A stretch of DNA of 64,000 nucleotides, taken from the NCBI RefSeq assembly GCF_028622875.1, contig NZ_CP117709.1, positions 4,715,001 through 4,779,000 on the forward strand, given 5' to 3'. Both the position numbers and the translations under genes were made by a program. Numbering within the stretch: position 1 is the first letter of the stretch; each line of letters starts with the position of its first letter. The DNA is from Streptomyces sp. MMBL 11-1 (lineage in GTDB: Bacteria > Actinomycetota > Actinomycetes > Streptomycetales > Streptomycetaceae). Below are positions 49,057-64,000 of the stretch, one piece after another. Under the pieces are notes generated by a model. That model was not told the origin of the DNA, searched no databases, and worked only from the letters and a program-made list of their open reading frames with translations.

Positions 49057-50130
49057 TCAGCCGACGACGGTCCAGGTGTCGTTGCCGGCGAGGAGCGCAC
49101 CGAGGTCGCCCTTGCCGTTCTGCTCGACGGCGGCGTCGAGCTGGTCGGACATCAGCGTGTCGTAGACGGGCCGCTCCACACTGCGCAGCACCCCGATGGG
49201 GGTGTGGTGCAGGGTGTCCGCGTCGGCGATCCGGGACAGCGCGAACGCCGTCGTCGGCGACTCCGCGTGGGCGTCGTGGACGAGGACCTGCGAGCGGTTC
49301 TCCTCCGTGACGGCCACGACCTTCAGATCACCGGTGGCCGGATCGCGGACGACGCCCTTGGGCTCCTGGGAGCCGAAGAGGATCGGCTGACCGTGTTCGA
49401 GGCGGATGACGGCCTCGGCGGCCTGCTCCTTGTCCTTGAGGACCTCGAAAGCGCCGTCGTTGAAGATGTTGCAGTTCTGGTAGATCTCCACCAGCGCCGT
49501 GCCCGAGTGCTCGGCGGCCGCGCGCAGCACACTGGTGAGGTGCTTGCGGTCGGAGTCGACCGTCCGCGCCACGAACGTCGCCTCCGCGCCGATGGCCAGG
49601 GACACCGGGTTGAAGGGCGCGTCGAGCGACCCCATCGGCGTCGACTTGGTGATCTTGCCCAGCTCGGAGGTGGGGCTGTACTGGCCTTTCGTCAGCCCGT
49701 AGATCCGGTTGTTGAAGAGCAGGATCTTGAGGTTGACGTTGCGGCGCAGGGCGTGGATGAGGTGGTTGCCGCCGATGGAGAGCGCGTCGCCGTCGCCGGT
49801 GACGACCCAGACCGACAGATCGCGCCGCGAGGTGGCGAGCCCCGTCGCGATGGAGGGGGCGCGGCCGTGGATGGAGTGCATCCCGTAGGTGTTCATGTAG
49901 TACGGGAAGCGGGAGGAGCAGCCGATGCCGGAGACGAAGGTGATGTTCTCCTTCGCGAGCCCCAGCTCCGGCATGAAGCCCTGCACCGCGGCGAGGACGG
50001 CGTAGTCGCCGCAGCCGGGGCACCAGCGCACTTCCTGGTCCGACTTGAAGTCCTTCATGGACTGCTTCGCCTCGGCCTTGGGCACCAGCTGCAGCAGATC
50101 GTTGTGGAGCAGTTCGTCGGTGTCAGGCAT
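49057..50130 (-). CDS. korB: 2-oxoacid:ferredoxin oxidoreductase, beta subunit
   Basis: KorB binds thiamine diphosphate and an Fe-S cluster, and with KorA oxidises 2-oxoglutarate (or a related 2-oxoacid) with CoA to acyl-CoA, reducing ferredoxin. The 357-residue product has the cluster cysteines in WCPGCGD and GIGCSSRFP and the TPP motif VVTGDGDALSIGGNHLIHALRRN. The ATG lies eight bases inside korA with a strong AAGGAGG just before it. It is translationally coupled to korA. Confidence 0.96.
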   Translation of the reverse strand: MPDTDELLHNDLLQLVPKAEAKQSMKDFKSDQEVRWCPGCGDYAVLAAVQGFMPELGLAKENITFVSGIGCSSRFPYYMNTYGMHSIHGRAPSIATGLATSRRDLSVWVVTGDGDALSIGGNHLIHALRRNVNLKILLFNNRIYGLTKGQYSPTSELGKITKSTPMGSLDAPFNPVSLAIGAEATFVARTVDSDRKHLTSVLRAAAEHSGTALVEIYQNCNIFNDGAFEVLKDKEQAAEAVIRLEHGQPILFGSQEPKGVVRDPATGDLKVVAVTEENRSQVLVHDAHAESPTTAFALSRIADADTLHHTPIGVLRSVERPVYDTLMSDQLDAAVEQNGKGDLGALLAGNDTWTVVG

Positions 50131-52087
50131 CGATGGCCTCCTTGAGGGCCGTGGCGAGCTGCTCGGCCTTGAACGGCATTCCGTTGACCTGGTTGTAGCT
50201 GTGGGCGTCCACCAGATACTTCGCCCTGAGCAGCATGGCCAGCTGGCCGAGGTTCATCTCCGGGACGACGACCTTGTCGTAGCGCTTCAGCACCTCGCCG
50301 AGGTTCTTCGGGAAGGGGTTGAGATGGCGCAGATGGGCCTGGGCGATGGGCTCTCCCGCGGCCCGCAGCCGGCGCACCGCCGCGGTGATCGGCCCGTACG
50401 TCGATCCCCAGCCGAGCACCAGGGTGCGGGCCCCGGCGGGATCGTCGACCTGGACATCGGGGACCTCGATGCCGTCGATCTTCGCCTGGCGGGTGCGGAC
50501 CATGAAGTCGTGGTTGGCCGGGTCGTAGGAGATGTTGCCCGTGCCGTCCTGCTTCTCGATCCCGCCGATGCGGTGTTCGAGGCCGGCCGTCCCGGGAATG
50601 GCCCAGGGGCGGGCCAGGGTCTGCGGGTCGCGCTTGTAGGGCCAGAACACCTCGGTGCCGTCCGCCAGCGTGTGGTTCGGGCCGGTGGCGAAGGAGGTCT
50701 TCAGGTCGGGCAGGGCCGCCGTCTCCGGGATCCGCCACGGCTCGGAGCCGTTGGCGAGATAGCCGTCGGAGAGCAGGAAGACCGGGGTGCGGTAGGTCAG
50801 GGCGATCCGGGCCGCGTCGATCGCGGCGTCGAAACAGTCGGCCGGGGTCCGCGGAGCCACGATCGGAACCGGGGCCTCACCGTTCCTGCCGAACATCGCC
50901 TGGAGCAGATCCGCCTGCTCGGTCTTGGTCGGCAGGCCGGTCGACGGCCCGCCCCGCTGGATGTCGATGATCAGCAGCGGCAGCTCCAGGGAGACCGCGA
51001 GCCCGATCGTCTCCGACTTCAGCGCCACCCCCGGACCGGACGTCGTCGTGATGCCCAGGGCCCCGCCGAACGCCGCGCCCAGCGCCGCACCGATCCCGGC
51101 GATCTCGTCCTCCGCCTGGAACGTCCGCACGCCGAAGTTCTTGTGCCGCGACAGCTCATGCAGGATGTCCGACGCGGGAGTGATCGGGTACGACCCCAGA
51201 TACAACGGCAGATCCGCCAGCTGCCCGGCCGCGATCAGCCCGTAGGACAGGGCGAGGTTCCCCGAGATGTTGCGGTAGGTCCCGGTGGGGAAGGCCTGCG
51301 AGGCCGGGGCGACCTCGTAGGAGACCGCGAAGTCCTCGGTGGTCTCGCCGAAGTTCCACCCGGCCCGGAAGGCCGCCACGTTCGCCTCGGCGATCTGCGG
51401 CTTCTTCGCGAACTTCTGCCGCAGGAACGTCTCCGTGCCCTCGGTCGGCCGGTGGTACATCCACGACAGCAGGCCCAGCGCGAACATGTTCTTCGACCGC
51501 TCCGCCTCCTTGCGAGGCAGCCCGAACTCCTTCAAGGCCTCCAGTGTCAACGTCGTCAACGGCACCGGATGAACGTTGTAGGCCTCCAGCGAACCGTCCT
51601 CCAGCGGGTTGGTCGCGTACCCCACCTTCGCCATCGGCCGCTTCGTGAACTCATCCGTGTTCACAATGATCTCCGCGCCGCGCGGAACATCACCGATGTT
51701 CGCCTTCAGCGCGGCCGGGTTCATCGCGACCAGGACGTTCGGGGCGTCACCCGGGGTCAGAATGTCATGATCGGCAAAGTGCAACTGGAAGGAAGAGACC
51801 CCCGGCAGGGTGCCCGCGGGGGCGCGGATCTCGGCCGGGAAGTTCGGCAGCGTGGAGAGATCGTTGCCGAAGGAGGCGGTCTCCGAGGTGAACCGGTCAC
51901 CCGTGAGCTGCATACCGTCACCCGAGTCGCCCGCGAAACGGATGATCACCCGGTCCAGGCGACGGATCTCCTTCCCGTCGCCGCCCGTGGTTCCCGTCGT
52001 ACCTGACAGGGGGGCTCGCTGACCCCCGAGGACGGCGTCGTTGGCCTCATCGGCCATCTCTGTCGCGCTACTGACCTGGCTCGTCAC
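50123..52087 (-). CDS. korA: 2-oxoacid:ferredoxin oxidoreductase, fused gamma-alpha subunit
   Basis: A 654-residue fusion: the N-terminal gamma domain (IRFAGDSGDGMQLTGDRF, near residue 50-250) followed by the alpha/pyrimidine-binding domain (SYPITPASDILHELSRH, EDEIAGIGAALGAAFGG, TSGPGVALKSE). This gamma-alpha arrangement is the actinobacterial and archaeal type. The GTG at 52087 has GGGAGG nine bases upstream. Mycobacterial KorAB acts as a 2-oxoglutarate:ferredoxin oxidoreductase; the substrate here is inferred. It begins the korAB operon. Confidence 0.96.
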   Translation of the reverse strand: MTSQVSSATEMADEANDAVLGGQRAPLSGTTGTTGGDGKEIRRLDRVIIRFAGDSGDGMQLTGDRFTSETASFGNDLSTLPNFPAEIRAPAGTLPGVSSFQLHFADHDILTPGDAPNVLVAMNPAALKANIGDVPRGAEIIVNTDEFTKRPMAKVGYATNPLEDGSLEAYNVHPVPLTTLTLEALKEFGLPRKEAERSKNMFALGLLSWMYHRPTEGTETFLRQKFAKKPQIAEANVAAFRAGWNFGETTEDFAVSYEVAPASQAFPTGTYRNISGNLALSYGLIAAGQLADLPLYLGSYPITPASDILHELSRHKNFGVRTFQAEDEIAGIGAALGAAFGGALGITTTSGPGVALKSETIGLAVSLELPLLIIDIQRGGPSTGLPTKTEQADLLQAMFGRNGEAPVPIVAPRTPADCFDAAIDAARIALTYRTPVFLLSDGYLANGSEPWRIPETAALPDLKTSFATGPNHTLADGTEVFWPYKRDPQTLARPWAIPGTAGLEHRIGGIEKQDGTGNISYDPANHDFMVRTRQAKIDGIEVPDVQVDDPAGARTLVLGWGSTYGPITAAVRRLRAAGEPIAQAHLRHLNPFPKNLGEVLKRYDKVVVPEMNLGQLAMLLRAKYLVDAHSYNQVNGMPFKAEQLATALKEAIDA

Positions 52088-63894: not shown

Positions 63895-64000
63895 CCGTGA
63901 TCGATATCAGTGCGTCCGTGATGCAGTTCCTTCTGGCGTTCCTCGTCGTCGCCCCGCTCCTCGGCGCCGTCGCGGCCCTGCTCCCCGCCCCGCCCGGGCT
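63891..64000 (+). CDS. nuoM2: NADH-quinone oxidoreductase subunit M, second copy (N-terminal fragment, runs off window)
   Basis: The GTG at 63891 overlaps the nuoL2 stop in a GTGA junction; GTG 63897 is an alternative. The visible 36 residues include the hydrophobic helix QFLLAFLVVAPLLGAVAALL, consistent with the first helix of NuoM. Identity rests mainly on operon order. Confidence 0.75.
   Translation, partial: MTVIDISASVMQFLLAFLVVAPLLGAVAALLPAPPG

Follow-up and report, generated by a model that had tools for sequence, protein, structure and literature searches.

The 11-subunit complex I of Desulfitobacterium hafniense (NuoABCDHIJKLMN) lacks NuoE, NuoF and NuoG, and ferredoxin has been proposed to act as its electron shuttle (PMC11238625; this and the other papers are cited from excerpts). 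The NDH-1 complexes of cyanobacteria and chloroplasts are also without the NADH-oxidizing N-module and have extra subunits for the delivery of ferredoxin, and the electron donor of complex I without an NADH module is described as an open question (PMC11238625). The subject here is nuo2, the second complex I gene cluster of Streptomyces sp. MMBL 11-1. It lies at the end of a stretch of 64,000 nucleotides (the window; C1:4715001-4779000 of an 8.5 Mb genome), the start of which carries the 14-subunit cluster nuo1 with nuoF. nuo2 has the subunit set of the D. hafniense enzyme, except that its nuoD is split off and korAB, encoding a 2-oxoacid:ferredoxin oxidoreductase, is nearby. The class that hosts nuo2 is largely aerobic, in contrast to D. 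hafniense. The results presented here support the reading that nuo2 and a remote nuoD2 jointly encode every subunit (A, B, C, D, H, I, J, K, L, M and N) of a complete 11-subunit complex I, without an NADH module and fed via KorAB, to which we assign a probability of roughly 0.6.

The split nuoD2 and the missing N-module are previously known. Streptomycete nuoA2, nuoB2, nuoD2 and nuoH2-N2, with a separate nuoD2, are already given in PMC3765725 and, with small differences, in PMC8388888; the SCO4599-4608 genes and lone nuoD2 treated there are the same genes, and antiporter swapping was proposed for them. The excerpts consulted contain neither a connection to kor nor a residue signature, and no survey of the class. 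The function of nuo2 was called unclear, and a hybrid machinery suggested, in PMC9239103. KorAB of Mycobacterium tuberculosis is a related two-subunit oxidoreductase whose acceptor was stated to be unknown and for which a membrane redox partner was suggested (PMC2773412). A search of the literature, covering open-licence papers, found no paper on the link to kor, the tryptophan signature or the membrane-free NuoBCDI described below. We know of no nuo2 in M. tuberculosis.

Composition and ancestry of nuo2

The gene order of nuo2 is A2-B2-C2-H2-I2-J2-K2-L2-M2-N2, with the genes of the window on the plus strand, and the cluster extends about 3.3 kb past the window end. Pfam matches between 56549 and 63894 identify nuoA2 (56549-57103; PF00507 over residues 84-183, start codon uncertain), nuoB2 (57094-57789; start predicted from the frame), nuoC2 (57786-59168), nuoH2 (59165-60133), nuoI2 (60133-60705), nuoJ2 (60705-61445) and nuoL2 (61894-63894). 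nuoK2 was identified by its reading frame (61445-61897) and by 49% identity of its product to NuoK of nuo1. Only the first 110 or so bases of nuoM2 (63891-64000) are inside the window; NuoM2 (about 63891-65684) and NuoN2 (about 65681-67288) match the NuoM and NuoN chains of solved complex I structures. A first-pass annotation, made from the letters of the window, had claimed that nuo2 lacks the NADH-oxidizing module, and indeed no nuoE, nuoF or nuoG is present in the cluster. Nor does the genome contain a second NuoF that would point to a dedicated set elsewhere: PF01512 has a single match genome-wide, at about 3182-3697 of the window, which belongs to nuoF1 of nuo1 (2999-4381, plus strand, predicted frame limits). 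The genes and order given by that annotation also stand, but it did not flag that nuoD, which its own list omits, is missing as well.

The absence of nuoD (49 kDa) weighs more than that of nuoE, nuoF and nuoG because NuoD and NuoB together form the quinone site of complex I (PMC8119997). With nuoD remote, the genes first listed do not make up a whole enzyme. Searching the genome with PF00346 found two NuoD proteins, NuoD1 of nuo1 and NuoD2, a protein of 380 residues encoded by a lone gene at C1:3269599-3270741, about 1.5 Mb from nuo2. NuoD2 is 36% identical to NuoD1, a divergence like that of the other nuo2 subunits, which share 32-38% identity with nuo1 over eight comparable subunits, with NuoK at 49% (nuoA1 and nuoB1 are outside the window). 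Since the subunits diverge consistently from nuo1 and the cluster recurs across the class, nuo2 is not a chance assembly. A nuoD fused to or hidden in the tail of nuoC2 was ruled out: Pfam shows only the 30-kDa domain in NuoC2, ahead of a low-complexity tail of about 270 residues, and the real nuoD2 is elsewhere. NuoD2 scored highest as a complex I NuoD, followed by MBS, MBH and FHL. The large subunit of Group 4 [NiFe] hydrogenases binds Ni via CxxC pairs, none of which was seen when NuoD2 was read by eye. At two nuoD2 loci (L054 and L047), the neighbors encode ABC and glycine-betaine transporters, DUF3180, FolB and DUF1684, and no redox partner was found among ten scanned proteins (nine of L054, NuoD2 included, and one of L047). 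At another locus (L046 of G028, 1572-6539), nuoD2 adjoins two NuoL2-like genes (41% and 31% identity), perhaps Mrp antiporter genes.

The distribution of these genes was followed in 246 genomes of the class, with NuoH2 relatives taken at 259 bits or more (the next protein, of NuoH1 type, scored 231) and NuoD2 relatives at E<=1e-95. nuoH2 is present in 61 genomes and nuoD2 in 87. Fifty-nine of the 61 nuoH2 genomes also contain nuoD2, the two exceptions being drafts of 80% and 72% completeness, and both genes occur in all 22 sampled genomes of the genus of the window. A separate protein search with NuoH2, in which the 120 matches listed were close relatives, Streptomyces-type where named, does not enter these counts. 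The two are 129 kb to 1.5 Mb apart where they share a contig (14 genomes) and are on different contigs in 45. Gene order was conserved in the 20 nuo2 loci fetched, and no nuoD was matched in them, although some end early at a contig edge. nuoD2 is not an obligate mark of a full nuo2: 28 genomes with nuoD2 lack nuoH2, which was later accounted for by the reduced loci discussed below.

A profile of ten NuoD2 proteins was also compared with named genomes, from which the best 80 loci were taken and the context of 62 (L116-L177) examined. In 14 of these (L116-L129; Kitasatospora, Actinomadura, Intrasporangium, Terrabacter, Micromonospora, Glycomyces and others), no nuo2 neighbor is beside nuoD2 in the stretches examined; one (L126) has weak matches (33-36%) to NuoN and NuoM near nuoD2. 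In 14 others (L130-L143), mostly Acidimicrobiia-type or unclassified actinobacterial assemblies, a NuoD2-type nuoD is in every case part of an 11-gene cluster, with nuoC and nuoH on either side of it, and NuoE, NuoF and NuoG were unmatched in the stretches examined, several of which end early with their contigs. NuoE, NuoF and NuoG were likewise unmatched in clusters of Bacillus and Paenibacillus. In a NuoH tree, the NuoH of nuo2 and those of L130-L143 form one clade (support 100/99), to which NuoH1 of the same Streptomyces and the NuoH of Bacillus and Paenibacillus do not belong. A NuoD tree is consistent with this grouping, and 18 other sequences split off at 100/99. A NuoD2-type nuoD inside contiguous nuoABCDHIJKLMN clusters implies that nuo2 is an 11-subunit complex I with a relocated nuoD, and these comparisons indicate that nuoD most likely moved away within the Actinomycetes. 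One of the 11-gene clusters (L134), on a contig labelled Acidobacteria, is directly behind another H-N stretch, which could reflect transfer or mis-binning.

Cofactors, pump residues and quinone pocket

The first-pass annotation had stated that nuo2 keeps all cysteine ligands of the NuoB and NuoI iron-sulfur (Fe-S) clusters. In alignments of 20 NuoB and 21 NuoI rows, own sequences included, the ligands of N2 (four cysteines in NuoB2) and of N6a and N6b (eight cysteines in two 4Fe-4S motifs of NuoI2) are all present and invariant. The membrane subunits also retain the glutamates and lysines that we take to be the functional, antiporter-like residues of the proton channels: E143, K225, K338 and K396 of NuoL and E159, K241, K272 and E425 of NuoM are invariant across the nuo2 rows, as are E169, K254 and K436 of NuoN, while K284 of NuoN is lysine in 14 rows, valine in one and methionine in one. 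Composition, common ancestry with nuoD-containing 11-gene operons, Fe-S ligands and proton-channel residues are all evident at the level of sequence.

The quinone pocket differs. Trp78 of NuoD2 occupies the place of the quinone-binding tyrosine (Y87 in Thermus, Y144 in Yarrowia), a quinone ligand said to be strictly conserved (PMC8119997). Tryptophan is found at this position in all 69 NuoD2 proteins extracted from the 87 class genomes and in all 46 of the named set (the two sets may share species), whereas tyrosine is found in 34 of 34 other NuoD proteins and in 20 of 20 NuoD1 proteins from class genomes, as in the NuoD1 of the window (811-2133, plus strand). In NuoH2, Val211 replaces the glutamate of the PFD-x-P-E-A-E motif; position 211 is Val, Ile or Leu in 34 of 34 nuo2-type proteins but Glu in 24, His in two, Met in one and Ile in one of 28 others. 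These two features set nuo2 apart from most other complexes examined, the Bacillus-type 11-subunit ones included. The clade thus lacks a supposedly strictly conserved tyrosine and, being present beside a normal complex I in the same cell, offers a natural test of models of quinone reduction.

Comparison with NDH-1 gives a mixed picture. Among solved structures, NuoL2 is best matched by cyanobacterial NdhF (295 bits) and NuoN2 by NdhB (206 bits), but NuoD2, NuoH2 and NuoM2 match other complexes better than NDH-1. NDH-1 retains the quinone tyrosine (Y72) that is tryptophan in nuo2.

Association of korAB with nuo2 and with its remnants

korB (49057-50130) encodes the beta subunit of the oxidoreductase (TIGR02177 243.7 bits, below the cut-off of 261.9), and korA (50123-52153) a fused alpha/gamma subunit (TIGR03710 655.9 bits, above the cut-off of 482.75) that is the only PF01558 match in the genome. 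2-Oxoglutarate is the presumed substrate, by analogy with KorAB of M. tuberculosis (PMC2773412). Both genes are on the minus strand, opposite to nuo2, and 4.4 kb upstream of nuoA2. The intervening genes, read from the sequence and also on the minus strand, encode an AbrC3-like response regulator (52517-53497; the true start is probably downstream) and two AbrC-like histidine kinases (53645-55006 and 55200-56435). Distance and two-component system agree with the first-pass annotation, which had given about 4.5 kb, and fit the AbrC1/C2/C3 system beside SCO4599-4608 in S. coelicolor (PMC9739823). In another genome of the genus (G089), korA and nuoA2 are only about 0.5 kb apart, compared with the AbrC-like system between them in the window, suggesting insertion or loss within a divergent promoter region.

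The proximity of korAB and nuo2 extends across the class. KorB relatives (E<=1e-85) are present in 188 of the 246 genomes, and KorB and nuoH2 are within 14 kb of each other in all 37 genomes that have both on one contig. A KorB position is listed for 50 of the 61 nuo2 genomes; four of the remaining 11 are without any KorB match, and one genome with no listed position (G178) has korA 4.8 kb from nuoA2. korA was seen in 13 of the 20 fetched full nuo2 loci, with a gap to nuoA2 of at most 500 bp in eight of the 13. A gene for the ferredoxin-like delta subunit was not found beside korAB in a scan for the motif C..C..C...CP. A separate ferredoxin gene, for which the first-pass annotation had suggested looking nearby, was likewise absent from the window and from 40 related loci, the scan of these 41 stretches being limited to that motif type; 37 of the related loci show NuoI2 alone, and three that end early (L209, L211 and L216) show nothing.

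Genomes that have lost the membrane arm also bear on the association of the two gene sets. All 28 class genomes with nuoD2 and without nuoH2 contain at least two NuoB-type proteins. Loci of 20 were fetched (L198-L217), and 16 show nuo2 cut down to nuoB-C-I, with korA at most 2.4 kb from nuoB in 13 of the 16; examples are L200 (G032) and L202 (Motilibacter), where nuoD2 is located elsewhere. One host of the reduced form was named in a search as Motilibacter sp. K478. No nuo2-type membrane genes were found in the reduced forms. The Fe-S ligands persist in the loci without nuoH2, with the N2 cysteines in 20 of 20 and the NuoI cysteines in 17 of 17. Ratios of nonsynonymous to synonymous substitution rates were 0.08-0.45 in the 14 of 16 gene pairs for which they could be computed (NG86), where high GC content makes the synonymous rate unreliable. 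Median NuoD2 identity is 62% in genomes lacking nuoH2 (18 of 28) versus 78.5% in genomes with nuoH2 outside the genus (26 of 37), counting those with a listed KorB identity; the former are largely one clade in the NuoD tree, so that p-values overstate independence. One locus (L212 of G030, 6547-8858) resembles an intermediate of loss, with nuoA-B-C, a fragmentary nuoH and nuoI present and nuoJ-N unmatched. The retention of korAB beside nuoB-C-I after loss of the membrane genes makes KorAB and NuoBCDI look like the core, with the pump optional. A large branch of the class, together with one or two other lineages, has probably lost the membrane arm, and the soluble part that remains, KorAB with NuoB-C-D-I, is probably the conserved functional unit. 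Separation of nuoBCDI from membrane genes is also described for the 2M complex I of Chloroflexi (PMC7117926); there the membrane arm is present elsewhere, in contrast to the reduced actinomycetes, for which nuo2-type membrane genes were not found.

In the proposed mechanism, KorAB would oxidize 2-oxoglutarate and the electrons, handed over by KorB itself or carried by a diffusible ferredoxin, would enter NuoI2 and continue through N6a and N6b to N2 in NuoB2. Menaquinone would then be reduced in the NuoB2/NuoD2 pocket, with its tryptophan in place of tyrosine, and the membrane subunits H2-N2 would pump protons. In the reduced genomes, the chain would have to end in a soluble acceptor or in a quinone at the membrane surface. 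A more specific and tentative proposal, for which we see slightly less than an even chance, is that the unit conserved in Actinomycetes is an oxidoreductase made up of KorAB and NuoB2-C2-D2-I2. It would have a Trp-type pocket, and NuoI2 would stand in for the ferredoxin-like subunit that KorAB lacks. The membrane arm would be dispensable, with Streptomyces keeping it and the large branch and the one or two other lineages losing it; their soluble core, free of the membrane, would hand electrons from 2-oxoglutarate to some acceptor that is not quinone bound in the tunnel. If NuoBCDI beside KorAB is indeed membrane-free, the redox half of complex I could be purified and studied without the pump, and the korAB-nuo2 neighborhood offers one answer to both the donor of NADH-module-free complex I and the acceptor of the mycobacterial enzyme.

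Several observations weigh against this mechanism or against an exclusive pairing of KorAB with nuo2. The tyrosine-to-tryptophan and glutamate-to-valine changes make menaquinone less certain as the acceptor. Besides 57 of the 61 nuo2 genomes, 131 of the 185 that lack nuoH2 contain KorB, and so do 108 of the 159 that lack nuoD2. In 13 nuo2 genomes, KorB and nuoH2 are on different contigs; the assemblies of G048 and G196 comprise only 7 and 5 contigs, which makes a true separation of the two genes probable there. Of the seven full loci in which korA was not seen, three end at a contig edge; the other four (G048, G095, G128 and G196) lack korA in the stretch examined. Seven of the 87 nuoD2 genomes have no KorB match, including G128 (listed as 100% complete, with a full nuo2) and G127 (98%, reduced form). 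Replacement of kor in G128 by another 2-oxoacid oxidoreductase was ruled out, the two long open reading frames being of RecC and UvrD type. kor is also a neighbor of nuo1: among cases with both positions listed on one contig, five genomes that lack nuoH2 and nuoD2 alike (G009, G040, G072, G126 and G183) have KorB at a distance of 10-32 kb from a NuoH of nuo1 type. In 13 reduced-type genomes with KorB and nuoH1 on one contig, the distance between them is 9-21 kb in 11 and exceeds 100 kb in two. At two loci (L071 and L072), a NuoN1-type match is just past korB. Finally, no match to korA or korB was found in the regions flanking the 14 contiguous clusters of 11 genes, so that the link to kor is not ancestral to the whole clade. 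Conservation of the korAB-nuo2 neighborhood thus held wherever both could be placed on one contig, but kor is not specific to nuo2. The first-pass proposal of a ferredoxin-linked complex I keeps its missing NADH module and class-wide kor proximity, and loses ground with the remote nuoD and the unspecific kor linkage. Genomic association supports a ferredoxin/Kor link to nuo2 but does not prove it.

These points fit an alternative in which several sources of reduced ferredoxin feed nuo2 as an 11-subunit pump, and KorAB is a conserved neighbor and just one of many donors. The commonness of kor without nuoH2, the full nuo2 of G128 and the kor-nuo1 neighborhoods speak for it, as does the ferredoxin-shuttle model of Desulfitobacterium, several donors being discussed for 11-subunit enzymes (PMC11238625). 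The closeness of korA to the B-C-I remnant in most reduced loci, where no ferredoxin gene of the scanned type was found, speaks against it. We regard this alternative as unlikely, but as deserving serious consideration.

It is more doubtful that nuo2 operates in reverse, with the proton gradient and menaquinol driving reduction of ferredoxin for reductive carboxylation by KorAB or for other low-potential reactions. An altered quinone pocket and adjacency to kor fit either direction, and complex I is described as reversible (PMC8357420). However, the reduced forms could not use a proton gradient, because no nuo2-type membrane gene was found in them.

Relation to nuo1 and further features of the locus

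A further alternative is that the nuo2 subunits are spares, exchangeable for those of nuo1 and used with the same NuoD1, NuoE, NuoF and NuoG, so that hybrid, NADH-driven complexes result. Differential use of NuoL2 and NuoM2 (PMC3765725, PMC8388888) and a hybrid machinery (PMC9239103) have been proposed, and nuo1 holds a nuoD and the only nuoF of the genome. Against this, nuo2 has a NuoD2 of its own, which accompanies it in nearly all nuoH2 genomes, the compared subunits are far from those of nuo1 (NuoK least so), and the Acidimicrobiia-type relatives are self-contained 11-gene clusters. Among NuoD proteins, the tryptophan is moreover a mark of the nuo2 type alone. Position 211 of NuoH is hydrophobic in all 34 nuo2-type proteins but in only 2 of 28 others. 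Subunit exchange with nuo1 is therefore improbable. That nuo2 is decaying or cryptic and nuoD2 a relic is highly improbable, even though nuoD2 is a lone gene, its conservation falls where nuoH2 is absent and the nuoH of G030 is fragmentary.

Two minor features accompany the cluster. The tail of NuoC2 is rich in Pro, Ala and Ser and contains repeats such as TPDKS; in several relatives outside the genus (for example L066 and L072), nuoH2 is too close to nuoC2 to allow such a tail. All five loci scanned (L066, L070, L072, L074 and L077) have a gene for an M48 (HtpX-like) protease after nuoN2, and several of the reduced loci have an htpX-like gene after nuoI. It is possible that this protease serves in quality control of the nuo2 complex.

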